Of a stretch of 64,000 bases of DNA, positions 15 through 41,022 are shown in pieces; position 1 is the first letter of the stretch, and each line of letters starts with the position of its first letter. A model generated the notes under the pieces. That model had not been told where the DNA came from. It did no database searches and saw only the letters and a program-made list of their open reading frames with translations. Source of the stretch: Rhodobacteraceae bacterium QY30. GTDB taxonomy: Bacteria > Pseudomonadota > Alphaproteobacteria > Rhodobacterales > Rhodobacteraceae. The position numbers were made by a program, and so were the translations under genes. The stretch is taken from contig CP023454.1 in the NCBI GenBank assembly GCA_002356635.1, positions 2,340,501 through 2,404,500 on the forward strand, written 5' to 3'.

Positions 15-3000
15 ATGCCGATGGAAAAGACGTTCAATGCAGCCGAGGCCGAGGCCCGGCTGTCCCGCCAGTGGATCGACGCCAATGCCTTTGCCGCCGG
101 CGCCAATGCCCGCCGGTCCGAGACGTTCTGTATCATGATCCCGCCGCCGAACGTCACCGGCAGCCTGCACATGGGCCATGCCTTCAACAACACCTTGCAG
201 GACATCCTGGTGCGCTGGCACCGGATGCGCGGGTTCGACACGCTGTGGCAGCCGGGGCAAGACCATGCGGGCATCGCCACGCAGATGGTGGTGGAACGGG
301 AACTTGCCCGGAACCAGCAGCCGTCGCGGCGGGAACTGGGACGCGAGGCCTTCCTGGGCAAGGTCTGGGACTGGAAGGGCAAATCCGGCGACACGATCAT
401 CAACCAGCTGCAACGGCTGGGTGCGTCCTGCGACTGGTCGCGCAACGCCTTTACAATGGACGAACATTTTCAGAAGGCCGTGCTGAAGGTTTTCGTCGAT
501 CTCTTTCACAAAGGCTACATTTACCGCGGCAAGCGGTTGGTGAACTGGGACCCGCATTTCGAAACTGCCATCTCGGATCTGGAGGTCGAACAGACCGAGG
601 TTCAGGGCCATATGTGGCACTTCAAATACCCGCTGGCGGGTGGCGAAACCTACGAATACGTCGAAAAGGACGCGGACGGGAACGTGACGCTGCGCGAGAC
701 GCGGGACTATATCTCGATCGCGACCACCCGGCCGGAAACCATGCTGGGCGACGGGGCCGTGGCGGTTCACCCGTCGGATGAACGCTACGCGCCAATCGTC
801 GGAAAACTTTGCGAAATCCCGGTCGGGCCCAAGGAACATCGCCGGCTGATCCCGATCATCACCGACGAATACCCCGACCCGACCTTCGGATCTGGCGCGG
901 TCAAGATCACCGGCGCGCATGACTTCAACGACTACGGTGTGGCGCAGCGCAACGGCATCCCGCTGTATGTGCTGCTGGACAGCAAGGCGCGGATGCGCAC
1001 GGATGGCCTGTCCTACGAGGAAAGCGCCACCATCGCCGGGGAGATCGCCCGCGGCGAACGCCCGTTGGAAGACGTGTCCGACATCAACCTGGTCCCCGAA
1101 GACCTGCGGGGGCTTGATCGGTATGAGGCCCGCAAGCGCGTGGTCGAGGAGGTGACGGCCGAGGGCCTGGCGGTCACCATCCTGAAGAAGTCCATCGACA
1201 AGGAAACCGGCGCCGAACATCTGGAACGGGTGCCCTTCGTCGAGGCGAAACCGATCATGCAGCCCTTCGGCGACCGCTCGAAGGTGGTGATCGAACCGAT
1301 GCTGACCGACCAATGGTTCGTCGACACTGCGCAGATCGTCGGCCCGGCACTGGACGCCGTGCGCCAGGGCATGGCCGCGCAAGAGGCGGGCACCTTCGAT
1401 CCGAAGGCAGGCTACACCCGCATCCTGCCCGAGCGCGATGCCAAGACTTATTTCCACTGGCTGGAAAACATCGAACCCTGGTGCATTTCCCGCCAGTTGT
1501 GGTGGGGCCACCAGATCCCGGTCTGGTATGGGTTCGACCTGAACTACGAAGCCCCGATCGGGGAGGACGGCGATCTGGACGAGGTCGACGTGCTGAAGCT
1601 GTTCGTGGACGGCCTGATCCAACCCGGAGAGGTGTTCCGGTCGGCGGCGTCCTTCGACGAGGTGATCGAGGGCTTCCGCGATGAAATCGCCGATACCCCC
1701 GGCCCCGTCGCCCACGCCCGGATCATCGAAGTCGCCGACAAGCACGAAGCGATGGAGCGTCTGGCCGAAGGGCTTGCGCTCTATGCCGTCGATCAGGACC
1801 CGCTGCATCTGGTCTACCCGGTCTGGCGCGACCCGGATGTGCTGGACACCTGGTTTTCCTCCGGCCTTTGGCCCATCGGCACGCTTGGCTGGCCCAATGA
1901 CACCGCGGAACTGCGCAAGTATTTCCCGACCGACGTGCTGATCACCGGGTTTGACATCATCTTCTTCTGGGTCGCCCGGATGATGATGATGCAGCTTGCG
2001 GTGGTCGATCAGGTGCCGTTCCACACCGTCTATGTCCACGCCCTTGTCCGCGACGAGAAGGGCAAGAAGATGTCGAAATCCCTGGGCAACGTGCTGGACC
2101 CGCTGGAGCTGATCGACGAATACGGCGCCGACGCGGTGCGCTTCACCCTGACGGCGATGGCCGCCATGGGGCGCGATCTGAAACTGTCGCCGGCGCGGAT
2201 CGCGGGCTACCGCAACTTCGGAACGAAGATCTGGAACGCCACGCGGTTCGCGGAAATGAACGGCGTCTTCGAAGGCCCGGCGGCGGCGGGCATCCCCACC
2301 CCCACGCACACCATCAACCGCTGGATCATCGGCGAAGTCGCCCGCGCCCGCATCGCCGTGGATGAGGCGCTGTCGAACTACCGCTTCAACGATGCGGCCA
2401 ACACCCTTTACGCCTTTGTCTGGGGCAAGGTCTGCGACTGGTACGTGGAATTCGCCAAGCCGCTGTTCGATGGCGACCACGCCGCCGAGACGCGCGCCAC
2501 GATGCGCTGGGTGCTGGATCAGTGCTATCTGCTTCTGCATCCGATCATGCCCTTCGTCACCGAAGAGCTTTGGGCGCTGACCGGCACGCGGCAAAAGATG
2601 CTGGTTCATGGTGACTGGCCGACCTACGGCGCCGAACTGATCGATGCCGAGGCCGACCGCGAAATGAACTGGGTCATCGGCCTGATCGAGGAAATCCGCT
2701 CTGCCCGCGCGCAGATGGGCGTGCCGGTGGGGCTGAAACTGCCGATGGTCCTGACCGAGGCCGACGCCGCCGCCCGCGCCGCCTGGGCGGGGAACGAACC
2801 GATGATCCTGCGTCTGGCGCGGATCGAAAGCCTGAGCGAAGGCCCTGCACCCAAAGGTTCGATCAGCATCGCCGCGCCGGGGGCGTCCTTCGCGCTGCCG
2901 CTGGAAGGCGTGATCGACGTGGCCGCCGAAAAGGCACGGCTGACAAAGGCACGCGACAAGCTGGCGAAGGACATGGGCGGTCTGCGCGGGCGGCTCGATA

Positions 3001-3125
3001 ATCCGCGCTTCATCGCCAATGCTGCCGAAGAGGTGATCGAGGAAGCCCGCGAAAAGCTGGCCGAAGGCGACGAGGAAATCGCCCGAATCGACGTGGCGCT
3101 GAAACGTCTGGCGGAGATGGACTGA
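15..3125 (+). CDS. valS: Valine--tRNA ligase
   Basis: Class I aminoacyl-tRNA synthetase that charges tRNA-Val in the cytoplasm and edits mischarged threonine. The HIGH-type motif is HMGH near residue 53, and KMSKS appears as [11 protein letters not shown] near residue 685. A C-terminal anticodon-binding region is followed by the usual Lys/Glu-rich coiled-coil arm (residues ~970-1036). At 1036 residues it is longer than the roughly 950 typical of enterobacterial ValS. The extra length sits mainly between [10 protein letters not shown] (~residue 496) and DPDVLDTW (~605), where an acidic segment of about 100 residues replaces a much shorter loop. A GGGGA-type ribosome site precedes the ATG. The stop overlaps the next start by one base (TGATG), suggesting translational coupling. 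Identity is secure. Confidence 0.98.
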
Positions 3126-3701
3126 TGGTCTCCTCCGTCACTGTTCTCACTCATGGCCGCCATACGATCCGGGCGGGCAAACTGAACGAACGCTTCGTTG
3201 CGCGGGCGTTCCTGCCCGGCGCCAAGGGAAGCGTACTGGAGTGCGGCGGCACGAACCTTGATGCCGCGATTGCAGCCTTGAAGTCGGCGCTGGACGATAA
3301 GGACCGTCTTCGCCGCAAGGCGCGTCGGCCCTTGCCCGAGCATCAGGCGGAAGTACCGACCCCCGACGAGTTCCTGGAAGCTCTGTCGGTCATGAAGATC
3401 ACCGACGAGCTGCGCACCATGTTAAAGGCGCACCGATCGGCGGGTGCGCGAGGTCTGACAGCCGGAGAGCTTGCACAGGCGGGGGGCTATCAGGGATACG
3501 AAACCGCAAACCTGCATTATGGAAAACTTGCGCGGGCGGTGGCGGAATACCTGTCTGTCCCGGTTCCAAGGTCGTCGATCCAGAAAGACAGGGAAATTCC
3601 GACGCTCCTGTTCGCAATCGACGGAGCCGCGCCCCGATGGGAGTTTTGTCTGGGTCATGCACCCCGAACTGGCCGAAGCTGTGGATAGCGGATTGAATTA
3701 G
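3125..3701 (+). pseudogene. Hypothetical protein with a probable frameshift near its 3' end
   Basis: The frame starting at the ATG that overlaps the valS stop runs 187 codons to 3688. Its core (about residues 95-140, with TAGELAQAGGYQGYETANLHYGKLARAV split over two stretches) looks like a small conserved fold that I have seen attached to restriction-type proteins, but I cannot name it firmly. The last ~17 residues of this frame look like noise. In the next frame, from about 3645, the sequence reads DGSFVWVMHPELAEAVDSGL and stops at 3701, which looks like a natural ending. Removing one C from the CCCC run near 3634-3640 joins the two frames. Either a sequencing error or a genuine frameshift would explain this. 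The gene is coupled to valS and converges on the MFS gene with a 2-base gap. Confidence 0.6.
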
Positions 3702-3703
3702 CC

Positions 3704-5326
3704 TCACACCTCGGGAAGCGGCTTCAGGGGCATGTCGTCGCGCAGGGGCACCGTCTGGCGTTCAATCATGCGATGCACCAGCGGCAGCCCCGGACCGCGG
3801 TGCAGGGCCAGGATCCGTTCGGTCACTTCAAGATCGGCCTTCGTGCGGCGCTGCTGGTGGCGGATGTAGTCCACCCATGTCGGGACATGGTAGCTTTCGA
3901 TCCACTGCTCGGGATTTTCCAGGTCTCTGAGAAGCGACCATTGCCGCGCGCCGTCCCGGATGCGGATGCGGCGGCGGTCCTGCATGACCGACAGGAAGGC
4001 CCCCACGTCCTCTTGCGCGATGCAATAGTCGATCATGATCAGGATCGGTCCGCTGCGGTCGCGCAACTCCAGCCGCAGGGCCGGTTCGGTAAACCGGCCG
4101 CTGGGATCCAGGTCGAGGTCCGAGAAATCGGGCATCGGCAACCACCGCCCGATCAGAACACCCAGGCCAAGCATCGTTCCGGCCGCAATCAGCGCCCGGT
4201 CGGTGCCCCACTGGTCAGCCAGCATCCCCCAGATCCAGCTGCCCGTCGCCATGCCGCCGAAGGTTGCCATCTGGTAGAAGGACAGGGCGCGCCCCACCAC
4301 CCAGCGCGGCGTGGCAAGCTGCACCGACACGTTGAACAGCGACAGCGTCATCACCCAGGCAACCCCGCAAGCCAGAAGCGCCACGACGCTGAGGATCAGG
4401 ACCTTGCTGAGCCCCAGCGTGACCAGCCCCAGCGCGAAGGCAAGCGATGCGGCCTGCACGATGCTTTCGTTCTTCAGCCGTGCCCGCAAGTGCCCGTTCA
4501 GCGACGCTCCGACGATCGCGCCAAAGCCGAAGGCCCCGAGCATCACGCCATAGGTCACGGCCGTGCCCTTCAGGATGTCGCGTGCCAGCGTGGGCATCAG
4601 CGCCAGAACCGCGCAGGCGGCAAAGCCGAACAGCGCACCGCGCAGCATCACCCGAAGCAGCGCCGGCGACATGGCGACATAGCGCAAGCCCGCGCCCAAG
4701 GCCCGGTGCAGGGGTTCGCGCGGCAAGGTGTCCTCGGGGTAGACGGGCCGCCAGGCGAACAGCGCCAGGATCAGCGGCACATAGCTGATGGCGTTGGCGG
4801 CAAAGGCCATGGCCGCGCCGCCCGCCGCCACGATGAAGCCGCCGATTGCAGGGCCGACGCTGCGCATCAGGTTGAAGCCCATGCTGTTCAGGCTGACCGC
4901 ATTCGGCAGGTCCGCGCGCGCGACGATGTCGCCCATCGACGCCTGCCAGGACGGGTTGTAAAGCGCCGTGCCGCAGCCGATCAGGAAGGTGAAGGCCAGA
5001 AGCGTCCAGGGCGTCAGCCAGCCCTGCCAGGCAAAGACGGTCAGCAGGACCGAAATCGCCAGCATGAAGACCTGCGCGACCAGCAGGATCCGGCGGCGAT
5101 TGAAGCTGTCGGCCAAGGCCCCCGCGATCAGGGAAAAGACCATGATCGGCAGGGTGTTCGACGCCTGCACCAGCGCCACAAGGCTTTGCTGCGATGTCAG
5201 GCTGGTCATCAGCCAGCCTGCGCCCACCGTCTGGATCAGCCCGCCCAGGTTCGAGGCCAGCGTGGCCGACCAGAGGTTGCGGAAGGTCGGGTTGCGAAAC
5301 GGCGCATAGGTGGACCGGTGTTCCAT
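3704..5326 (-). CDS. MFS transporter of the EntS-like (MFS_3) family
   Basis: Inner-membrane major facilitator, probably an exporter; the substrate is unknown. Residues 1-400 carry about 11-12 hydrophobic spans, with the typical cytoplasmic-loop signature ADSFNRRRILL between spans 2 and 3. Residues ~410-540 form a hydrophilic C-terminal domain containing IDYCIAQEDVGAFLSVMQD and WIESYHVPTWVDYIRHQQR. That tail is characteristic of the MFS_3 (PF05977) proteins of 520-540 residues, so the length fits. The gene is transcribed divergently from the aminotransferase at 5411, with 84 bases between. Family assignment is strong; transport of a siderophore-like compound is only a family-based guess. Confidence 0.85.
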   Translation of the reverse strand: MEHRSTYAPFRNPTFRNLWSATLASNLGGLIQTVGAGWLMTSLTSQQSLVALVQASNTLPIMVFSLIAGALADSFNRRRILLVAQVFMLAISVLLTVFAWQGWLTPWTLLAFTFLIGCGTALYNPSWQASMGDIVARADLPNAVSLNSMGFNLMRSVGPAIGGFIVAAGGAAMAFAANAISYVPLILALFAWRPVYPEDTLPREPLHRALGAGLRYVAMSPALLRVMLRGALFGFAACAVLALMPTLARDILKGTAVTYGVMLGAFGFGAIVGASLNGHLRARLKNESIVQAASLAFALGLVTLGLSKVLILSVVALLACGVAWVMTLSLFNVSVQLATPRWVVGRALSFYQMATFGGMATGSWIWGMLADQWGTDRALIAAGTMLGLGVLIGRWLPMPDFSDLDLDPSGRFTEPALRLELRDRSGPILIMIDYCIAQEDVGAFLSVMQDRRRIRIRDGARQWSLLRDLENPEQWIESYHVPTWVDYIRHQQRRTKADLEVTERILALHRGPGLPLVHRMIERQTVPLRDDMPLKPLPEV

Positions 5327-8376: not shown

Positions 8377-10134
8377 GTGAACGCATCCCCCGCCGCCGCC
8401 CTGCCCCGCCCGGGATCCCCAAGACTGTTTCCCCGGTTCTGGCGCGACTATCTGTCCGCCCACAAATGGCGGATGGCTGCGGCCTTCCTGCTGATGAGCG
8501 TCGAAGGCGGCTCTCTGGGCGTCCTGTCGTGGATGCTGAAGCCGCTGTTCGACCGCGTCTTCATTGGCGGCGACAGCGATGCCGTCTGGTGGGTCGGCGG
8601 GCTGATCTTCCTCTTGTTTCTGGTGCGGGCGCTGACGACGATCCTGAACCGCGCACTTCTGACACGGGTGGCGCAGGCCACGTCCAGCCAGATGCAGATC
8701 GATCTGGTAGGGCATCTGTTGTCGCTGGACGGCCAGTTCTGGCACAAGAACCCTCCCGGCGCCCTGATCGAGCGGGTGCAGGGCGACACCGCCGCCGTGC
8801 AAGGGGTCTGGAGCCTGCTGATCACCGGGATCGGGCGCGACCTGATTTCGCTGGTCGCGCTGTTCGGCGTGGCGGTCGGCATCGACTGGCGCTGGACCCT
8901 TGCCGCGACGCTGGGCGCGCCGCTGCTCATCCTGCCAACGGTGCTGGTTCAGCGGTACGTCCGGCGCAAGGCCGATCAGGTGCGCACGCAGGCGGCCACC
9001 CGCGCCACCCGGCTGGACGAGATCTTTCACGGCATCACCGCCGTGAAGCTGAACGGGCTTGAGGACTACCAGCTGGGGCGCTTTTCCCGCGTGGTCCGGT
9101 CGATCGTCCGGGCCGAGGTGAAATCGGCCGCCAGCCGCGCCACGGTTCCGGCGCTCATCGACATCGTGACCGGGCTTGGCTTCTTTCTGGTGCTGGTGCT
9201 TGGAGGACGCGAGATCGCCTCGGGCGAACGGACAGTGGGCGACTTCATGGCCTTCTTCACCGCGATGTCGCTGACCTTCCAGCCGCTCCGCCGCCTGGGC
9301 GACATTGCAGGCAGCTGGCAGGTGGCCGCGGCCAGCCTGGCGCGGCTTTACGGCCTCAAGGACACGCAGCCCTCGGTCACCGACGGGCACGAGACGCGCG
9401 CCCCTGCTGCGATGAGTGTCGAGTTCCGGGATGTCTGGCTCAGCTTCGGCAGCCATCCCGCCCTGCGCGGCCTGTCCTTCCGGGCCGAAGCCGGGCAGAC
9501 CACCGCACTGGTCGGCGCGTCGGGCGCGGGGAAGTCCACCGTCTTCAACCTGCTGACCCGTTTGATCGACGCGGACAGGGGCTCCATCACGGTGGGTGGT
9601 ACCGACGTACGCAGGCTGACGCTTGCGACCTTGCGGGATCTGTTTTCGGTGGTGACGCAGGATTCGACCCTGTTTGACGAAACCATCCGGGAAAACATCG
9701 CACCCGGCCGCGCCGATCTTGACGCGGCGACCTTGCGCCAGGCGATGGACGCGGCCCATGTCAGTGAATTCGTGGACGCGCTTCCAGGCGGTTCGGACAC
9801 GCGCGTGGGTCCGCGCGGATCGTCGCTGTCCGGTGGCCAGCGCCAGCGCGTTGCCATTGCCCGCGCGCTGCTGCGTGACCGGCCGATCCTGCTTCTGGAC
9901 GAGGCGACCTCGGCGCTGGATGCGCGAAGCGAACGGCTGGTACAGGAAGCCCTGGAAACCCTGTCCGCCGGCCGCACGACACTGGTGATCGCACACCGGC
10001 TGGCCACGGTCCGCAATGCCGACAAGATCATCGTCATGGACCACGGCCGCGTCATCGAGGAAGGCACCCACGACGCGCTTCTGGCTGCGGGCGGCGCCTA
10101 CGCCCGGCTTTGCGCCTTGCAGTTCACCGAATAG
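8377..10134 (+). CDS. ABC exporter with fused membrane and ATPase domains (MsbA-like)
   Basis: Half-transporter of 585 residues. A six-span exporter domain covers residues ~20-330 and the nucleotide-binding domain ~345-585. Walker A is GASGAGKST (~residue 380), the signature is LSGGQRQRVAIARALL (~484), and Walker B is LLLDEATSALDA; the switch region is IAHRLATV. It probably homodimerises in the inner membrane and flips lipid or drug-like substrates, as MsbA does for lipid A core. I chose GTG 8377; the frame is open upstream to 8257 but that extension has no family similarity. No strong ribosome site is visible, so the start is less sure than the function. Confidence 0.83.
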   Translation: MNASPAAALPRPGSPRLFPRFWRDYLSAHKWRMAAAFLLMSVEGGSLGVLSWMLKPLFDRVFIGGDSDAVWWVGGLIFLLFLVRALTTILNRALLTRVAQATSSQMQIDLVGHLLSLDGQFWHKNPPGALIERVQGDTAAVQGVWSLLITGIGRDLISLVALFGVAVGIDWRWTLAATLGAPLLILPTVLVQRYVRRKADQVRTQAATRATRLDEIFHGITAVKLNGLEDYQLGRFSRVVRSIVRAEVKSAASRATVPALIDIVTGLGFFLVLVLGGREIASGERTVGDFMAFFTAMSLTFQPLRRLGDIAGSWQVAAASLARLYGLKDTQPSVTDGHETRAPAAMSVEFRDVWLSFGSHPALRGLSFRAEAGQTTALVGASGAGKSTVFNLLTRLIDADRGSITVGGTDVRRLTLATLRDLFSVVTQDSTLFDETIRENIAPGRADLDAATLRQAMDAAHVSEFVDALPGGSDTRVGPRGSSLSGGQRQRVAIARALLRDRPILLLDEATSALDARSERLVQEALETLSAGRTTLVIAHRLATVRNADKIIVMDHGRVIEEGTHDALLAAGGAYARLCALQFTE

Positions 10135-32155: not shown

Positions 32156-33082
32156 ATGAACCGCCCGCTGCCGCCCCAGACCATGCCCCTTGTGGGGCTG
32201 CCAGTCCCGCGCCGCCCCGTGCCGCCATTGGCGGAGGTGCTGGGCCGCCATGCGGGCGCGCTGGCTGGTCCGATGGCGCTGATCTTCGTGGAGGACGGCG
32301 TAGAGGTCGCCTCGACCATCCGGCATCACCTGGACGGGGGGTTCCGCACGGTCCTGCTGTGCCTGGCCGACACGACGGAGCTGCCGGCTGAAGTGGAGGA
32401 TCTAAAGGGCGTGGTGCCTGCGCGGCATGATCCGCGCCCCGCGGGTGCGGTCATGGCGGCGGTCAACGCCGTTCTGGCCGTGGTGGCCGATGGCACCTGG
32501 ATCTACCACGGCTACAATGGCGAATACCTTTTCCACCCCTTCTGCGAGACCCGCAGCATCCGGGAGATGCTGGCCTTTCACGCCGAGGAGCGGCGGCCGT
32601 CGCTGTTCACGACGGTGATCGACCTGTATCCCGCGGGCCCGGCGGTCGCGGTCGACATGTCCGACCGGTCGAACCTGTTTCTGGACAGCCGCGGCTATTA
32701 CAGCCTGCCACGGACGGACGCCCAGGGACAGGCCTTGGACAGGCAGGTCGAGGTGTTCGGGGGACTTCGCTGGCGCTTTGACGATCACGTCCCGCCGGAC
32801 CGGCGCCGGATCGACCGGATCGCGCTGTTTCAGGCGCGCAAGGGGTTGCGGATGCTGCCCGACCACCGGTTCTCCGACGCGGAATACAACACCTGTGCCT
32901 GCCCCTGGCACCACAACCTGACCGGATGCGTGATGTCCCTGCGAGCGGCGAAGGCGCTGCGCGCGAACCCCGGCAGCCTGGCGGCGATCGAACGGCTGGA
33001 CTGGGCAGGATCGGTCCGGTTCGAAGGGACGTCGCAGCAACTGATGGATCTGGGGCTGATGGAACCGGGGCAGTGGTTCTGA
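32156..33082 (+). CDS. Divergent glycosyltransferase-like hypothetical protein
   Basis: A 308-residue soluble protein that I cannot place firmly. It resembles the Rhodobacterales GT2-like group: HHLDGGFRTVLLCLADTTE early, then GTWIYHGYNGEYLFHPF and ETRSIREMLAFHAEERR, where the usual GT2 'DxDEF' acceptor loop stands as NGEYL. The second half has conserved aromatic/His residues (DHRFSDAEYNTCACPWHHNL). The expected metal-binding acidic pair is not obvious, so activity is uncertain. It opens the glycan region and is divergent from miaB. ATG 32156 follows a 157-base gap; the upstream extension lies in the intergenic region. Confidence 0.55.
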   Translation: MNRPLPPQTMPLVGLPVPRRPVPPLAEVLGRHAGALAGPMALIFVEDGVEVASTIRHHLDGGFRTVLLCLADTTELPAEVEDLKGVVPARHDPRPAGAVMAAVNAVLAVVADGTWIYHGYNGEYLFHPFCETRSIREMLAFHAEERRPSLFTTVIDLYPAGPAVAVDMSDRSNLFLDSRGYYSLPRTDAQGQALDRQVEVFGGLRWRFDDHVPPDRRRIDRIALFQARKGLRMLPDHRFSDAEYNTCACPWHHNLTGCVMSLRAAKALRANPGSLAAIERLDWAGSVRFEGTSQQLMDLGLMEPGQWF

Positions 33083-33319: not shown

Positions 33320-34249
33320 GTGCGGTATCTGGTTACGGGAAGCGAAGGCCTGGTGGGCGCGTCCTTGTCCGAAACCCTTCGACAGGCGGGTCACGAGGTC
33401 GTGGAGTTCGACCTTCGCAAGGATGGGCGCGACATCCGCGATCCTGCCACGGTTTCGGCGGCGGCGAAGGACTGCGACGGCATCATCCATCTGGCGGCGG
33501 TCTCGCGGGTGGCCTGGGGCGAGGCCGATCCCGCGCTTTGCGACGAAATCAACATCACCGGCACCTCGGTCATCCTTGACGCGGCGCTGCGGGCCGAGCC
33601 GCGCCCCTGGGTCTTGTTCGCCAGTTCGCGTGAGGTTTACGGCGACCCGGACGCCTTCCCCGTGTCCGAGGAGGCGCATGTGGCGCCGGTCAACACCTAC
33701 GGCCGTTCGAAGGCCGAAGGCGAAAGGCTGGTCCATGCGGCGGCGGACCAGGGGTTGCGCTCCGCCATCATCCGGCTGTCCAACGTCTACGGCAACCGCA
33801 ACGATCATCCCGACCGGGCGGTCCCGTCGCTTTTGTGGCGGGCGGTGCAGGGGCTGGACCTGCGCATTTCCGGCGAGGATCATTTCTTCGACTTCGTCCA
33901 TGTCGATGATTGCGTGCGCGGCCTGATGAAGGTCATGGATCGGCTTTCCGCCGGGATCGAGACGCCGCCCCTTCATCTGGCCACCGGGGTGCGCACCACA
34001 CTGGGCGAGCTGGCCCGCGCGGCCATCGCCATCGCGCAATCCGAATCTCCCCTGACGGTCCTGCCCTCGCGCAGTTTTGACGTGGCCGGGTTCGTGGGCG
34101 ATCCCACTCGCGCCGCCCAGGTTCTGGGCTGGCGGGCCGCGATTCCGCTGGACGAAGGATTGCGACAATTGCGCGTGCAGATGCTGGCGGCCGGACAGCC
34201 GATGGACCCGGTCGAGATGCCGCCGCGGATCGCACCGTCGAAGGGTTGA
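33320..34249 (+). CDS. NAD-dependent epimerase/dehydratase (extended SDR)
   Basis: Sugar-nucleotide modifying enzyme of 309 residues. Rossmann motif VTGSEGLVGASLSETL (GxxGxxG), then GIIHLAAVSRVAWGE, the catalytic Ser/Tyr/Lys set in FASSREVYG and NTYGRSKAEGERL, and FDFVHVDDCVRGLM. Starts at GTG 33320 with AGAGG just upstream. Most likely it supplies a modified NDP-sugar for the glycosyltransferases downstream; which sugar cannot be read from sequence. Confidence 0.85.
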   Translation: MRYLVTGSEGLVGASLSETLRQAGHEVVEFDLRKDGRDIRDPATVSAAAKDCDGIIHLAAVSRVAWGEADPALCDEINITGTSVILDAALRAEPRPWVLFASSREVYGDPDAFPVSEEAHVAPVNTYGRSKAEGERLVHAAADQGLRSAIIRLSNVYGNRNDHPDRAVPSLLWRAVQGLDLRISGEDHFFDFVHVDDCVRGLMKVMDRLSAGIETPPLHLATGVRTTLGELARAAIAIAQSESPLTVLPSRSFDVAGFVGDPTRAAQVLGWRAAIPLDEGLRQLRVQMLAAGQPMDPVEMPPRIAPSKG

Positions 34250-34314: not shown

Positions 34315-35493
34315 ATGGCAACCCGGATCCTTGACATTCCACTGCACGACGCCGCCCGCGACCTGGCGGGGCTGGATGGCTATGACCATGCGCTCGTTCT
34401 TCTCCGGATGGGAGAGCGGCCGGTGGGCCAGGTGACGGTGCGGGTCCATGACGGGCAGGTCCGGGGGGCGGTGCTGGCCCGTGCCATCGACCGCAAGACG
34501 CTGGATCTGGCGGCCGCCGTCGCCGCCGGGGCCGAGGTCCTTGCCGCCCCCCCGACCCCGGACCTGACCATCGTCGCAGCAATCTGCACCCGCGAACGCC
34601 CCGATGACCTGCGCCGCGCCCTGTCTGCCCTGCTGCGGATGGAGTTCCGGGGCGCGGGCGTTCTGGTGATCGACAATTGCCCGGCGACGGATGCGACCCG
34701 GGCTGTCGTGGCCGAGTTTCCGGGCGTGCGCTACATCCTTGAGCCGAAGAAGGGCCTGAACAACGCCCGAAACCGCGCCCTGCGTGAAGCGGGGACCGAC
34801 ATCGTGGCCTTCATCGATGATGACGCGGTGGCCGACCGCTTCTGGCTGAAGGCGATCCTGCGCCGCTTTGCCGATGACGTGGTGGCGGCGGTGACGGGGC
34901 TGACCATGCCCTATGAGTTGGAAAACCGCGCGCAAGAGGATTTCGAGGCGCTGGCCGGCTTCTCGAAGCGGGGTTTCCTCTCGCGGAGCTTCCAGGTCCC
35001 GGTGACGCATCCCCTTGCGACGGGCCAGATCGGTGCGGGGGCGAACATGGCGGTCCGTGCGTCCCTGCTGGAGGAAATCGGACCGTTCGATCCGGCGCTG
35101 GATGCGGGAACCGCCACCCAGTCGGGGGGGGACCACGAATATTTCACAAGGATCCTGCGCGCCGGGCACCGAATCGTCTATGAACCCGCCGCGCTGAACT
35201 GGCACCGGCATCGCCGCACCCGGGCCGAGTTGTGCGCCGCCGTCCACGGCTATGGCGTCGGCGTCTACGCCGCCTGGACGCGCAGCTTCCTGACCGAGCG
35301 GGAATGGGGGGTGTTCCGCCGCGCGTTCGGCTGGTTCGTCCACGACCAGCTTCCCGCGCTGCTACGGTCCTGGATCCGCCCGTCGGCCCGGCATCCGCGG
35401 GACGTGGTCTGGGCCGAACTGACGGGATGTGCGAAGGGCCCCTACGCCTATCTGAAGGCCAGACGGGTGGCGCGAAAGGCGGGGCACATCTGA
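34315..35493 (+). CDS. Glycosyltransferase family 2 with an N-terminal accessory domain
   Basis: Cytoplasmic or membrane-associated enzyme of 392 residues. Residues 1-~85 form a small domain (LDGYDHALVLLRMGERPVGQ); a GT2 (GT-A) domain follows, with AAICTRERPDDLRRAL, the donor/metal motif FIDDDAVADRFWL, GAGANMAVRASLL and the acceptor motif SGGDHEYFTRIL. The same accessory domain and GT2 recur as the second half of the next gene, so these are paralogues. ATG 34315 is preferred; the frame is open upstream to 34246. Two bases separate its stop from the next ATG. Confidence 0.85.
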   Translation: MATRILDIPLHDAARDLAGLDGYDHALVLLRMGERPVGQVTVRVHDGQVRGAVLARAIDRKTLDLAAAVAAGAEVLAAPPTPDLTIVAAICTRERPDDLRRALSALLRMEFRGAGVLVIDNCPATDATRAVVAEFPGVRYILEPKKGLNNARNRALREAGTDIVAFIDDDAVADRFWLKAILRRFADDVVAAVTGLTMPYELENRAQEDFEALAGFSKRGFLSRSFQVPVTHPLATGQIGAGANMAVRASLLEEIGPFDPALDAGTATQSGGDHEYFTRILRAGHRIVYEPAALNWHRHRRTRAELCAAVHGYGVGVYAAWTRSFLTEREWGVFRRAFGWFVHDQLPALLRSWIRPSARHPRDVVWAELTGCAKGPYAYLKARRVARKAGHI

Positions 35494-35495
35494 TC

Positions 35496-37982
35496 ATGAC
35501 CGGAACCGCGCCTGACCTCAGCGTGATCATCCCCACCCACAACCGCCGCGCTGCGCTGATCCGCGCGCTGGAGGCGTTGGCGGCGCAGACCCTGGTCCCC
35601 ACCCGGTTCGAGGTCGTGGTCGTTATGGACGCCGTCACCGACGACACGCCCGCCGCCCTTGCGGCCAGGACCTGGCCCTTTGATCTCAGCGCCATCGTGC
35701 CGCCCGGCCGCGGCGCTGCGGGTGCACGCAACGCGGGGGCCGGCCAGGCGCGGGGGGACCGCATCGTTTTCATGGATGACGACATGGTTCCCGCACCGGG
35801 TTTCCTGGCGGCGCATCTTCATGCTGCAGAAGGCGGCACGAAAGTGGTGGTGATTGGCCACTCCGCGCCCAGGATGGTGGATCGCGGCTGGTCGGGTCAA
35901 TTGCTGGAGCGGTGGTGGACGGCCCAGTTCCAGGCGATGACCGCGCCGGATCACCGGTTCAGCCACCTGGACGTGATGAGCGGCAATCTGTCCTTGCCGC
36001 GCGCGCTGTTCCTGGCGGCGGGCGGCTTTGACGAAACCCTGCCGGTGCGCGAGGATTACGAACTGGGCTACCGGCTTCTTTGCGCAGGTGCGACGTTGCG
36101 GTTCGCGGCCGGGGCGCTGGCCTGGCATCATGACGCCAGCACCGCATCGCGCAACCTCATGCGGGCCGGAACCGAAGGCCGGGCCGATGTCATGGTCGCC
36201 CGCAAACACCCCGAGCTGTTCGACGACCTGAAGGCCGCCGGCATGTCGCGCCCCACGGTGGGGGGACGGATGCTGCGCCGGATGCTGTTCGGCGCCCCGT
36301 TGCTGGGGAATGCGCTTTTCGGGCTGACGGGCGCACTGCTGCCGGTGCTGCGCGGGTTGGGCCTGCGCACGCGCTGGCAACAGCTGAACGATTACCGGCG
36401 CGCCTTCGCCTACCATCGCGGCGTGGCGCGGGAAGCCGGCAGTCCCGCCGCCTTTGACCGGCTGGCGGCCGAAGCGCGCCGCGTGCGGCCGGATCCCGCG
36501 CCTTTTGCCGTGGACGTGCTGGGCGATCTGGAGGCCGCGCGGGCAGAGGTGGACCGGCGCGCGCCCTCGGGCATCCGGCTTTGCTGCGGCGCGGCCGTGA
36601 TCGGGCACCTCCCCGACGATCCCGGCGCCGAGCCGCTGGCACGGCGGCATCTGGACGGGCTTCTGGACCGCACGCTTTACCGCTGGGCGCCGGCCCGACG
36701 GCTGTCTGCGGATCTGCCGCCCCTGCCCCGCGACCTGCCCGACTGGATCGGCGCCCTGCCCGTCCGCGCGCCGGAGCACACCGCCTCGCTGGCGGAACTG
36801 GACCTGGCCGACTGGAACCTGACTGCGAAAGAGGTCCGTGGTGGCTATCCGCTGCGGATCCTGGTCCGGCGCGGTGCCACGCCGCTGGGCTGGGTAACGC
36901 TGGCGGAACGGCTTGAGCCGGGCACCTTCTGGGACACCCTGCGCGATCATGTCCTGGGTGACGCTGACATCAGTTCCCGCGCGCTCCGCGCCCTGCTGGT
37001 GCCGGAGCAGGATCCGGCGCCCATGCCGCCGATCAGCGTCGTGGTCTGCACCCGCGACCGGACCGACAACCTGGCCCGCTGCCTGACGGCGCTTCGGGCG
37101 CTGGAATATCCCGACTACCAGATCCTTGTCGTCGACAACGCCCCCGCTACCAATGCGACGCGCGCCCTTGTCGCTTCGCTGCCCGGCGTGGACTACACCT
37201 GCGAGCCGCGACCGGGGCTGGACTGGGCACGCAATCACGGGCTGGCCCAGGCCGCCCACGACATCGTCGCCTTCACCGATGACGACACGATGGCCGACCG
37301 TCACTGGCTGCGCGGCATCGCCGGGGCCTTCGCGGACCCGGATGTGGGTCTGGTGACGGGGCTTGTCGCGCCGATGAAGCTGGACACGCCGGCGCGGACC
37401 TATTTCGAGGATGTCTACGGCGGCATGGGCAAGGGCTTCGACGCGTTCCTGCGCACCAACGACCGCCGCGCCACCGACCTGCTTTGGGCCAGCGAATACG
37501 GCGTGGGCGCGAACATGGCCTTTCGCCGCGCGGTGCTGGCGCGGACGGGACCGTTCGATCCGGGGCTGGATGTGGGCACTCCCACGCGGGGCGGCGGCGA
37601 CATCGAGATGTTCCATCGCGCGGTGGCGCGCGGCGTGACCCTTGCCTATCAGCCCGCCGCCTTCGTCTGGCACGAACATCGCGCCGATGTGGCGGGGCTG
37701 CACCGGCAACTGGCGGACAACGGCAGCGGTTTCGGTGCCTATCTGCTGACCTGCGCGCGCAACCGCACCGTGCCGCTGCCCGCCATCCTGGTCTTTGCGC
37801 TGCGCGACTGGGTCGGCCGCTGGATGGTGCGGCGGATGGTCCGGCCCGGGGGCCACAGTCGCGGGCTGGTTGCCGCCGAGGTCACGGGTCTGCTAAAAGC
37901 CGTTCACGGTTACAGAAAAGCGCGCACCCTGGCGGCCCGGTCCGCCCGCGGGGCGCCCGATCAGGCCACGCCCGTGAAATGA
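35496..37982 (+). CDS. Double glycosyltransferase: two GT2 domains in one chain
   Basis: An 828-residue protein. The first GT2 domain (residues ~5-300) has SVIIPTHNRRAALIRALEAL, FMDDDMVPAPGFL and VREDYELGYRLL. A linker (~300-500) includes an accessory domain related to the start of the previous protein (GGYPLRILVRRGATPLGWVT). The second GT2 domain (~508-800) has SVVVCTRDRTDNLARCLTAL, FTDDDTMADRHWL, GVGANMAFRRAVL and GGGDIEMFHRAV. Both domains keep their acidic metal and catalytic residues, so both may be active, for example adding two sugars in turn. Its stop overlaps the permease start (ATGA). Confidence 0.88.
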   Translation: MTGTAPDLSVIIPTHNRRAALIRALEALAAQTLVPTRFEVVVVMDAVTDDTPAALAARTWPFDLSAIVPPGRGAAGARNAGAGQARGDRIVFMDDDMVPAPGFLAAHLHAAEGGTKVVVIGHSAPRMVDRGWSGQLLERWWTAQFQAMTAPDHRFSHLDVMSGNLSLPRALFLAAGGFDETLPVREDYELGYRLLCAGATLRFAAGALAWHHDASTASRNLMRAGTEGRADVMVARKHPELFDDLKAAGMSRPTVGGRMLRRMLFGAPLLGNALFGLTGALLPVLRGLGLRTRWQQLNDYRRAFAYHRGVAREAGSPAAFDRLAAEARRVRPDPAPFAVDVLGDLEAARAEVDRRAPSGIRLCCGAAVIGHLPDDPGAEPLARRHLDGLLDRTLYRWAPARRLSADLPPLPRDLPDWIGALPVRAPEHTASLAELDLADWNLTAKEVRGGYPLRILVRRGATPLGWVTLAERLEPGTFWDTLRDHVLGDADISSRALRALLVPEQDPAPMPPISVVVCTRDRTDNLARCLTALRALEYPDYQILVVDNAPATNATRALVASLPGVDYTCEPRPGLDWARNHGLAQAAHDIVAFTDDDTMADRHWLRGIAGAFADPDVGLVTGLVAPMKLDTPARTYFEDVYGGMGKGFDAFLRTNDRRATDLLWASEYGVGANMAFRRAVLARTGPFDPGLDVGTPTRGGGDIEMFHRAVARGVTLAYQPAAFVWHEHRADVAGLHRQLADNGSGFGAYLLTCARNRTVPLPAILVFALRDWVGRWMVRRMVRPGGHSRGLVAAEVTGLLKAVHGYRKARTLAARSARGAPDQATPVK

Positions 37983-38758
37983 CTGCGCTCCGCCTTCGAT
38001 CACTTCGACACGTCGTGGACGTGATTTCGGTGCTGGTCTGGCGCGACCAGAAATCGCGCTACAAAAGCACGGGGATGGGCGTGGTCTGGGCCATTGCCAG
38101 CCCGGTGCTGTTCCTTCTGACCTTCTACCTGCTGTTCCGCGTCGTCCTGCCGCTGAACATCCCGAACTATGCCTCGCATCTATTCATCGGACTGGTGTTC
38201 TGGACCTGGCTCCAGACCACGACGATGGAGGCCGTGACCTGCATCGTCCAGAACCCGGGCCTGGTGAACCAGCCGCGCTTTCCGACGGTGGCCCTGCCGC
38301 TGGCGGCGACGACCTCGAACCTGGTCACGCTGCTTCTGACCTTGCCGCTTTTGCTGGTGATCCTCTGGTTCGAAGGCGCCCGGATCGGGCCCTCGGTCGT
38401 GCTGCTGCCTTTGCTGGTGGCCTGCCAGTTCGTCTTTGTCCTGGCCGTCGCCTATTTTGTGGCGGCGCTGAACGTGGTGTTCCGCGACATGCAGTATATC
38501 GTGCCGATCCTGCTGCAACTGGGCTACTTCACCACGCCGATCTTCTACGACGCCGCGTCGATTCCGGACCGCGCGCGGTTCATCCTGGGCTTCAACCCGA
38601 TGATGCAGCTGATCGAGGCGCACCGCCGGATCCTGATCCACGGCGAATGGCCGGCGCTGGCCCCCATCGCCGCCGTGATGGCGGGAAGCCTTCTTGCGCT
38701 TTGGTTTGCATTCCGGTTCTTCCGCCTCGCTTCGCTGCGGTTTCTGGAGGAAATCTGA
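37979..38758 (+). CDS. Polysaccharide ABC exporter permease (Wzm/TagG type)
   Basis: Inner-membrane protein of 259 residues with about six spans, of the ABC-2 polysaccharide export group. N-terminal amphipathic part WRDQKSRYKSTGMGVVW, then LTFYLLFRVVLPLNIPNYASHL, FWTWLQTTTMEA, and the late VVFRDMQYIVPILLQLGYFTTPIFY, which is the typical signature. It partners the ATPase encoded directly downstream, with no gap. ATG 37979 overlaps the glycosyltransferase stop by four bases; the frame open upstream is a shadow within that gene. Confidence 0.92.
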   Translation: MTALRLRSLRHVVDVISVLVWRDQKSRYKSTGMGVVWAIASPVLFLLTFYLLFRVVLPLNIPNYASHLFIGLVFWTWLQTTTMEAVTCIVQNPGLVNQPRFPTVALPLAATTSNLVTLLLTLPLLLVILWFEGARIGPSVVLLPLLVACQFVFVLAVAYFVAALNVVFRDMQYIVPILLQLGYFTTPIFYDAASIPDRARFILGFNPMMQLIEAHRRILIHGEWPALAPIAAVMAGSLLALWFAFRFFRLASLRFLEEI

Positions 38759-40015
38759 ATGGAGGTCATGCTGCGGGCCGAGGGCTTGGGAAAATCCTTC
38801 CGTCACACCGTCGCCGATGGTCCGCGCACCTTTCGCCAGTGGGTCGAGGGCGGCTTCCTGAAGCGCCGCGGCCGGGCCAGGGGCCGCTTCTGGGCGCTGC
38901 GCGATGTCGGTTTCACCGTGGAACGCGGCGAGATGGTCGGCGTGATCGGGCACAATGGTTCGGGCAAGTCGACACTCCTGCGGCTTCTGGGCGGGGTGAT
39001 GCAGCCCGACGAAGGCCGCGTGACCACCGCCGCGCCGATCCACGGGCTTCTGGAGTTGAACACAGGTATGCACCCGGACCTGAGCGGGCGCGAAAACATC
39101 CTGATCAATGGCGTCCTGGGCGGCCTTCTGAAGGGCGAAGTGCAGGCCCGGATGGAGGCGATCATCGCCTTTGCGGAACTGGAGGACCATATCGACGACC
39201 CGGTGCGGACCTATAGCAGCGGGATGAAACTGCGACTGGGCTTTGCCATCGCGGTCCATGTCGACCCGGAAGTCCTGTTGATCGACGAAGTGCTTGCGGT
39301 GGGGGACATGGCTTTCCAGCAGAAGTGCCTGGACCGGATTGCGGCCTTCAAGGCGCAGGGCTGCGCGATCGTGCTGATCAGTCACGACATCGGCCAGGTA
39401 AAGACCTTCTGCGACAAGGTGCTCTGGATGGATCACGGCCGGGTGCGGGCCATGGGTCCGGCAGAGGAGGTGGTCCACGCCTACACCACCGCCATGACGC
39501 GGGAAACCAGGCGGCGCACGCCATCCGACCTGCCCGATGCCTTCACGGCGCAAGGCGTCCGGCTTCGGTCAGGCGAAAACCGGCTTGGCTCGCAAGAGAT
39601 AACGCTTTCCGATGTCGTGCTGCTGGACGCCCAGGGACAGGCCACCAACCGCATCGCCGTCGGCGCGCCACTGACGTTGCGCGCGGTGCTGAATGCCGAC
39701 CGGCGGATCGAGACCGCGCAGGTCAGCGTGTCGATCGCGAATGCGGACGGCACGCCCTGCCTGGACGTGAACACCGAAAACGACGCGGTCGCCCTGCCGC
39801 CCCTTCACGGGTCACTCTCGGTGACGCTGGACCTGGCGCGCCTGGACCTGGCGCCGGGGCTTTACCGGGCCAGCGTCGGCGTCTGGGAAAAGGGCTGGAG
39901 CCATGCCTACGACTTCCACGTCGACGCCTATCGGCTGGAGGTGACGGACGGGCGGAAGGTCAGCGGCGTGCTGTCGCCGCCGCGTCACTGGGTGATCAGC
40001 GGCGCGGTCTCCTGA
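38759..40015 (+). CDS. Polysaccharide ABC exporter ATPase with C-terminal domain (Wzt type)
   Basis: ATPase of 418 residues. Nucleotide-binding domain 1-~250: Walker A GHNGSGKST (~64-72), signature YSSGMKLRLGFA (~151), Walker B LLIDEVLAVGDMAF. Residues ~275-418 form an extra beta-rich domain (LTLRAVLNADRRIETAQVSV, LDVNTENDAVALP, LYRASVGVWEKGWSHAYDFH) like the Wzt carbohydrate-binding domain that recognises the finished O-antigen end. This implies export of a complete glycan with a recognised terminus. Its 3' end overlaps the convergent GT2 gene by 31 bases. Confidence 0.92.
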   Translation: MEVMLRAEGLGKSFRHTVADGPRTFRQWVEGGFLKRRGRARGRFWALRDVGFTVERGEMVGVIGHNGSGKSTLLRLLGGVMQPDEGRVTTAAPIHGLLELNTGMHPDLSGRENILINGVLGGLLKGEVQARMEAIIAFAELEDHIDDPVRTYSSGMKLRLGFAIAVHVDPEVLLIDEVLAVGDMAFQQKCLDRIAAFKAQGCAIVLISHDIGQVKTFCDKVLWMDHGRVRAMGPAEEVVHAYTTAMTRETRRRTPSDLPDAFTAQGVRLRSGENRLGSQEITLSDVVLLDAQGQATNRIAVGAPLTLRAVLNADRRIETAQVSVSIANADGTPCLDVNTENDAVALPPLHGSLSVTLDLARLDLAPGLYRASVGVWEKGWSHAYDFHVDAYRLEVTDGRKVSGVLSPPRHWVISGAVS

Positions 40016-41022
40016 GCGGGCAGCGACTCGTCCGGGCCCTGGGGCCGCGCGAGATAGGCGAAGGGCCGGCCACCGTCGCGCACCCAGTCCGACAGGCACA
40101 CCTTTTCCGCCCCCCCGTCCCGGATGGATCTGAGCTTCATCGCGTGCAGCGTCCTCAGTTCCGGGGTCAGGAACCAGAGCGGGTTCAGCACGTAGGCTTC
40201 GAACAACAGGCGCAGCACGGTGCGATAGTGACCGTGACGCCGGAAGCTGGGCAGGAGCCAGCCGTTCAGCACCGTCCGGCCATTCGCAAAGCATCGGCCG
40301 GGTGTGGCGGGGAATTCCTCGCGGATGTCGGCCATCACGGTGCGCACGGCGCGGAGTTGGTTCTGCGGATTGCCCTGCGACATGCCTTCGTGCACCAGGC
40401 GGTAGCCGACCAGCACCTGAGGCACCAGCACCGGGGCGGCGGCGGCGGCCATGCGCAGGCACATCTTCCAGTCCTCGGCCCCTTCGGCGCGCCGGGCGCG
40501 GAGAGAGGCGTCATAGCCCCCCACCCGCTCCAGCGCGGAGCGCCGGAACATCGCCGCGCTGCCGTTCCCGACAGAATTCAGCGACAAGAGGCCCTGGAAG
40601 TCGTGGCGTGGCACATAGGGCCATTCGGGGCCGGGAATCAGGCGGTTCTGCGTATCGAACCGGAAGGAATAGGCATAGGCAAACGGCGCTTCGGGCGTTT
40701 CATCAAGGGCCTGCGACACGATCCGCAGGTAATCCGGGTGCCAGATGTCATCGGAATCAAGGAAGGCCACATAATCTCCCCTGGCCTGCCGGAAACCGGC
40801 ATTCCGGGCCGCCGCAAGGCCCACGTTCCGCTGCCGGACAACCTTGATGCGCGGGTCGCGAACGGCAAAGCGCCGGATAAGCGCGGCGGTGCCATCGGTT
40901 GATCCGTCATCGACGATGATGACTTCGAAATCGGAAAGTGTCTGGGCCCGGACCGATGCCAGCGTATCGGCAAGGGACCAGGCGGCATTGTAAGCCGGGA
41001 TGACCACGGAAATGTCGGTCAT
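39985..41022 (-). CDS. Glycosyltransferase family 2
   Basis: GT2 enzyme of 345 residues. Features: ISVVIPAYNAAWSLADTLAS, VDDGSTDGTAALIRRF, NVGLAAARNAGFRQARGDYV-type region, the DxD motif FLDSDDIWHPDYLRI, and AEDWKMCLRMA as the catalytic segment. The C-terminal ~100 residues contain an amphipathic, Arg-rich segment (FRRHGHYRTVLRLLFEAYVL) that may associate with the membrane. It faces the Wzm/Wzt operon and overlaps wzt at the 3' end, so it probably serves the same glycan but is separately expressed. ATG 41022 gives the usual GT2 start. Confidence 0.88.
   Translation of the reverse strand: MTDISVVIPAYNAAWSLADTLASVRAQTLSDFEVIIVDDGSTDGTAALIRRFAVRDPRIKVVRQRNVGLAAARNAGFRQARGDYVAFLDSDDIWHPDYLRIVSQALDETPEAPFAYAYSFRFDTQNRLIPGPEWPYVPRHDFQGLLSLNSVGNGSAAMFRRSALERVGGYDASLRARRAEGAEDWKMCLRMAAAAAPVLVPQVLVGYRLVHEGMSQGNPQNQLRAVRTVMADIREEFPATPGRCFANGRTVLNGWLLPSFRRHGHYRTVLRLLFEAYVLNPLWFLTPELRTLHAMKLRSIRDGGAEKVCLSDWVRDGGRPFAYLARPQGPDESLPAQETAPLITQ

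Follow-up and report, generated by a model that had tools for sequence, protein, structure and literature searches.

A double glycosyltransferase with a linker of two small domains, encoded beside Wzm/Wzt-type exporter genes in Rhodobacteraceae bacterium QY30

A single open reading frame of 828 amino acids (35496..37982, forward strand) in Rhodobacteraceae bacterium QY30 carries two glycosyltransferase domains of the GT2 type separated by a linker of about 200 residues. The frame starts 2 bases past the stop of another GT2 gene. This arrangement raises the question of how two transferases came to share a chain, what the stretch between them is, and whether the chain acts alone or as part of a larger set of enzymes. 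Throughout, the window denotes the whole stretch of 64,000 nucleotides that was analysed; N denotes the standalone upstream transferase, D1 and D2 the first and second transferase parts of the fused chain, and sm the small domain found in the linker.

The Pfam family Glycos_transf_2 (PF00535) matches the fused chain in two separate stretches, with 157 bits for the chain. D1 comprises the first GT2 domain and its C-terminal helices (35496..36461, forward strand, residues 1-322), and D2 is the second GT2 domain (37017..37979, forward strand, residues 508-828). D1 displays the motifs DDD at residues 94-96 and ED at 186-187, and D2 displays DDD at 595-597 and GGGD with Asp 702. Residues D45, D94-D96, E186 and D187 of D1 are invariant in all nine aligned rows, as are DNAP, DDD and GGGD in the nine rows of D2. 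Judged by these conserved positions, each half carries a complete predicted GT-A donor site and a catalytic acidic residue. The first-pass annotation, which had described two complete GT2 domains on one chain, is borne out in this respect, with neither half found to be without a donor site. The AlphaFold model likewise consists of two GT-A domains, helices after each, and two small mixed domains in between; the full-chain AF2 model has a mean pLDDT of 86.9 and a modest pTM of 0.60, with the mutual placement of the domains not fixed by the model. The top-scoring named families in NCBIfam are EpsD (NF041875; 267.9 bits for the whole chain against a cut-off of 370, best stretch 8-322 in D1) and MftF (TIGR03965; 208.9 bits against 280, best stretch in D2), and both curated cut-offs are missed even with the two halves counted together.

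Codon-position GC is coding-like across all four modules of the gene, with third-position values of 0.80-0.86. The same fused frame is present in two further genomes (locus L001, with an open frame of 871 aa, and L006, with 840 aa), and is therefore not an assembly error. In L001 the fused gene begins with a short tandem repeat (8941-9018) that contains six ATG codons in frame. Residues 455-816 align by blastp with nearly the full length of the 34315 product at 39% identity over 378 columns (E 1e-64), which agrees with the earlier proposal that the second half, together with the small domain before it, is homologous to the whole neighbouring protein. The first half matches that product at 27% only (E 3e-8), a level that would be expected for distant GT2s.

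The linker proposed earlier is real, and itself consists of two domains: two copies of one domain of about 80 residues, of which the first is divergent and forms D1's own C-terminal domain (D1C; 36504..36713, forward strand, about residues 337-406), and the second is D2's own N-terminal domain (sm; 36783..36998, forward strand, residues 430-501). The D2 copy matches the sm profile A4 with E 5.9e-20, being itself among the 20 rows of that profile. The same domain also stands at the start of N and of those D2 genes that are not fused, and profile-profile comparison relates D2's sm to N's sm with a probability of 97. The relationship of D1C to sm is more distant. With few sequences the two gave only a weak match (P about 0.008, probability about 5%), and the larger comparison, of 11 D1C and 46 sm sequences, gives a score of 27.7 (P 9.8e-5, probability 58) over 72 colinear columns, against 14.7 for the best of 60 shuffled controls and at most 13.2 for unrelated glycosyltransferase blocks. 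The larger set, with a score above 60 of 60 shuffles and above those blocks, argues against a chance match, and the resemblance is best described as a moderate sequence match supported by similar predicted topology. The isolated linker is modelled with a mean pLDDT of 90 as two units with the order strand-(helix or strand)-hairpin-helix, the models differing in the element after strand 1, which is a helix in D1C and a strand in sm. Among the 46 sm sequences, restricted to matches at E 0.001 or better that cover at least 47 profile positions, 41 have a glycine after the hairpin turn and 42 an acidic residue in strand 1.

The domain has few counterparts in the collections searched. Seven of eight sm/D1C stretches have no Pfam match at E 10, the eighth, from a relative, having a match below the cut-off; three stretches from the window have no match in NCBIfam; PHROGs returns a single weak match, to N's sm (E 0.033); and the sm profile matches nothing among PDB sequences below E 0.77. 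Among titles and the beginnings of abstracts, the literature yielded no report on the N-D1-D2 gene set or the sm domain. Fold matches of the linker are weak (best E 0.41, best Z 2.9), involve mostly the D1C half and are mainly to CBS proteins, which prompted consideration of a CBS/Bateman module. Profile comparison does not support this assignment: the CBS profile, built from 18 of 19 hits after one with an internal stop was left out, scores 10.1 against D1C (shuffles up to 12.5) and 18.5 against sm over only 9 columns (80 shuffles up to 12.6), compared with 78.6 for a split CBS control. Pfam CBS has no match in the eight stretches.

The organisation of related loci bears on the origin of the fused chain. 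Short peptide patterns scanned over one genome per species returned 12 loci, ten of which hold relatives and two of which, both clostridial, match a GT2 stretch only. Among the loci read, those holding all three of N, D1 and D2 also number 12 (the window, L001-L009, L066 and L070), and in every one the order is N-D1-D2, beside ABC-exporter genes. D1 and D2 are separate genes in eight of these loci and fused in four (the window, L001, L006 and L008). The named hosts belong to Rhodobacteraceae, to Chitinophagaceae/Sphingobacteriales of the Bacteroidota, and to cyanobacteria. A methyltransferase gene sits between D1 and D2 in L005, and two copies of N flank a short D1-like fragment in Microcoleus vaginatus (L004:3592-7808). 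The D2 of L009 is split over two frames (2502-3768) on a contig of a metagenome-assembled genome (MAG) at low coverage (2.4x), probably through an assembly error. The fused chain of L008, from Sphingobacteriales, has neither sm nor D1C detected, and sm is present on N of the same locus; the two small domains are therefore not needed in every fused chain. L008 is also a MAG contig, and its D1 forms a long branch (0.99).

Wider sampling points to a patchy distribution. Of 394 genomes from the window's family, 3 match the D1 profile, its own included, all with long open frames (932, 871 and 840 aa); two of these genomes are not new cases, since their positions and sizes equal those of L001 and L006. 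In the phylum, 2 of 398 genomes match, again counting its own, and the other has D1 in a frame of 335 aa that lacks the C-terminal part. Other queries found related GT2s in 2 of 149 family and 4 of 385 class genomes, own included. This distribution fits horizontal transfer followed by rapid divergence.

A tree of 66 glycosyltransferase domains, restricted to rows with at least 75% profile coverage and 60 bits, recovers clades of D1 (n=12, 100/99), D2 (n=11, 99/99) and N (n=13, 100/100); L009, with its split frame, and the partial L010 have no D2 row. Every clade includes Rhodobacteraceae, Bacteroidota and cyanobacteria, and in each the three Rhodobacteraceae rows make up a clade of their own, as do the three Bacteroidota rows, at a support never below 91/83. 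As the three clades hold the same lineages, the cassette moved together. D1 represents a GT2 subgroup different from that of N and D2, and the N-like and D2-like rows are united in a larger clade of 33 rows (93/99, below star level, with its inner order not settled). The D2 of the fused chain is nearest other D2s and not its own N, and the tree speaks against a recent duplication before the fusion. The separation of N from D2 is older than the dispersal of the cassette and has no connection to the fusion, because both clades span the same three lineages. The first-pass annotation had suggested gene duplication followed by fusion with another GT2. The term paralogue stands, since D2 and N share the larger clade; the recent duplication tied to the fusion does not, both clades being old, and the supposed partner, D1, was already a gene between N and D2. 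The joining of D1 and D2 was probably a loss of the boundary between neighbouring genes that took place once in this Rhodobacteraceae lineage, and the three Rhodobacteraceae fusions fit one event. The fusion in L008 is best read as a separate event, because its nearest relatives, L007 and L005, are unfused.

The surroundings of the fused gene are those of an ABC-dependent polysaccharide locus. N (34315..35493, forward strand) is a standalone sm-GT2 transferase and, by Pfam, blastp and the tree, an old paralogue of D2. Before it lies a gene for an NAD-dependent sugar epimerase/dehydratase (33320..34249, forward strand; Pfam Epimerase, 146 bits), which likely supplies a sugar donor and is 75% identical at the same place in L001 but only 29% in L006. 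A Wzm-type ABC-2 permease (37979..38758, forward strand; Pfam ABC2_membrane) overlaps the stop of the fused gene and is followed by a Wzt-type ATPase with a C-terminal carbohydrate-binding domain (38759..40015, forward strand; Pfam ABC_tran and Wzt_C), which is the single Wzt_C match in a search of its own genome. The transferases are thus directly adjoined by a Wzm permease and a Wzt_C-bearing ATPase. Convergent with the Wzt gene is a further GT2 (39985..41022, reverse strand; Pfam; 71% identical at the same place in L001), which the tree joins to GT2 modules from sm-bearing proteins (100/97) and which is probably a fourth transferase of the locus. A Glyco_tranf_2_4-like protein at the edge (32186..33082, forward strand; Pfam E 1.5e-6) possibly belongs to the locus as well; it is 62% identical at the same place in L001 and was not found in L006. 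Pfam recognised no chain terminator among the seven locus proteins scanned. In L001, which is of the same genus, the whole locus lies between the same flanking genes, with locus genes 62-84% and flanks 79-97% identical. Polysaccharide-export and Wzy-type genes of the QY30 genome are sited elsewhere (1.15 and 3.39-3.41 Mb).

We consider it probable that the fused chain represents two of the three core transferases of a Wzm/Wzt-exported surface polysaccharide, joined from neighbouring genes with their sm domains kept. N, D1 and D2 are proposed to build the exported glycan because both halves of the chain look active and N adjoins them in 12 of 12 loci. Each would add one sugar to a lipid-linked glycan at the cytoplasmic face of the membrane, and the product would then be exported by Wzm/Wzt. 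The loss of the boundary between D1 and D2 would have retained both small domains, giving the order GT2-sm-sm-GT2. Beyond the observed anatomy, intact donor sites, gene order, history and shared domain, we infer that both halves are active and work in succession, and that N, D1 and D2 form a complex; the literature yielded no biochemistry of any family member. Given the presence of N beside D1-D2 in all 12 loci, a disaccharide is no more likely than a repeat unit made by three modules, and one of the three could be an adapter or side-chain transferase.

It is improbable that the neighbour was duplicated, its copy fused to another GT2, and that the resulting chain alone polymerises a repeating disaccharide. 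The homology of D2 and N over nearly their full length would suit such an origin, and K4 chondroitin polymerase, the best structural match, offers a precedent for disaccharide polymerisation by one chain; the three separate adjacent genes in eight of the 12 loci, the age and support of the N and D2 clades, and the presence of N as a third transferase in all 12 argue against this account. Somewhat less doubtful, though still unlikely, is a division of labour in which the lipid-linked acceptor is primed by an adapter, D1 (or N), only D2 with one partner extends the glycan, and the fusion does no more than couple two successive early steps. D1 does fall in another GT2 subgroup than N and D2, its nearest named model, EpsD, belongs to an exopolysaccharide pathway (below the cut-off), and the available passages of PMC11231755 describe adapter transferases as a known requirement in such pathways. 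The present data are compatible with an adapter and with a polymerase role, and the GT2 at 39985-41022 could be the adapter instead.

In six chosen genomes all sm matches at E 0.01 fall within the locus, except one weak match (L041, E 0.0035), which appears GAF-like by eye and was set aside. At E 0.001, sm occurs in 9 of 194 sampled cyanobacterial genomes, the reference included, and in 1 of 247 of Bacteroidota, which is the reference itself. An ABC permease or ATPase gene is nearby in all 19 sm-bearing loci read, counting the window, with only the permease recognised in L003, whose contig ends there, and only the ATPase in L005 and L069; three loci with weak sm matches (L074-L076) have an ABC exporter of another, fused type (by Pfam in L074 and by similarity in L075 and L076). 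Architectures comprise sm-GT2, GT2-D1C, sulfotransferase-sm-sm-deacetylase, and GT2-sm-sm-deacetylase with or without a methyltransferase, where Pfam was used to assign domains in proteins of L002 and L005, and similarity in those of other loci; the second sm is weak (E 0.07) in the GT2-(methyltransferase)-deacetylase protein of L005. Proteins of about 1160 aa combine GT2, sm, a NodS-like methyltransferase and a polysaccharide deacetylase (L005:11846-15313, L066:8321-11839). Among cyanobacterial double chains, L069 has the order sm-GT2-sm-GT2, the second sm is weak in L068 and L067:10334 (E 0.022 and 0.002), and none was found at that place in L067:13040. L069 also encodes, on the reverse strand (2403-3608), a methyltransferase domain fused to Wzt_C, and its nearby Wzt gene has a Wzt_C of its own. 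Cyanobacterial versions of the locus encode a 690-aa Wzt ATPase with Wzt_C and a C-terminal sulfotransferase (L002:11605-13674, L004:11615-13684, L010:1332-3401, L070:10428-12497; domains by Pfam in L002 and by similarity in the others), which may be a chain terminator that sulfates and is linked to the exporter.

What sm does in these proteins is a matter of weighing several roles. It might act as a glycan-binding module, present once or twice per enzyme on the same polymer, and this is a tentative possibility, less likely than not: the enzyme types that bear it, GT2, sulfotransferase, deacetylase and methyltransferase, could all act on one glycan. Carbohydrate-binding modules usually have aromatic stacking platforms, whereas no well-filled column exceeds 57% aromatic residues among the 46 sm sequences; the L008 chain, fused without detected sm although its N carries one, also speaks against binding. 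With lower probability, sm would be a new family of docking domains organising the transferases together with sulfotransferase, deacetylase and methyltransferase into an assembly line, much as docking domains arrange the assembly line of polyketide synthases. The C-terminal sm of D1 would then pair with the N-terminal sm of D2 in the unfused cyanobacterial and Bacteroidota systems; fusion in Rhodobacteraceae would have frozen the pair as a tandem, and fusion in Sphingobacteriales, where the pair was no longer needed, would have dropped sm. Docking suits a domain that occurs on enzymes of varied chemistry, lies between catalytic modules and is absent from the fused chain of L008; the retention of sm in three Rhodobacteraceae fusions and in cyanobacterial double chains argues against it. 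The remaining probability falls to structural or other roles.

The ordering of separate-chain transferases during ABC-transporter-dependent polysaccharide synthesis is understood only in part. Here the same three transferases are available unfused, fused with the linker and fused without it, and because the family offers these three forms together with a small shared domain that has no Pfam match over the cut-off, the role of sm is directly testable. The domain may normally hold neighbouring sugar-adding enzymes together.

Two GT-A (GT2) domains in one chain are also found in the class II hyaluronan synthase PmHAS and in the E. coli K4 chondroitin polymerase KfoC/K4CP (2z86, 2z87), where one such chain can make a disaccharide polymer. 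Among solved structures K4CP matches the full model best (Foldseek E 1.3e-18; Z 25.1 over 445 residues, covering both halves), with an rmsd of 27 because of which the domain arrangement is taken to differ; by sequence the K4CP chain matches with E 6.6e-10, the best stretch being a short one, 162-228, in D1, with no single stretch passing E 0.001 by itself. Unlike K4CP, the chain in the window has two sm domains between its GT2s and a third GT2 as a partner. According to the passages available of PMC11231755, Klebsiella pneumoniae O7 makes its ABC-exported O antigen with a chain of two GT2 modules and one standalone transferase, the C-terminal part of ORF6 and ORF7, each GT2 having its own donor-site motif. 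Two-hybrid tests show interaction of the polymerase proteins, the scaffold in Klebsiella is a coiled-coil protein, and to the authors it is unclear what governs the distribution of modules (PMC11231755, same passages). In that account ORF6, unlike the chain in the window, adds a coiled coil and a methyltransferase-kinase terminator, and the third enzyme of O7 is a ribofuranosyltransferase where N is a GT2; the same passages of PMC11231755 make no mention of sm domains for O7. In function, the fused chain is best read by analogy as resembling O7 ORF6 or K4 chondroitin polymerase; double-GT2 chains are already known, and the sm-sm linker is the new element.
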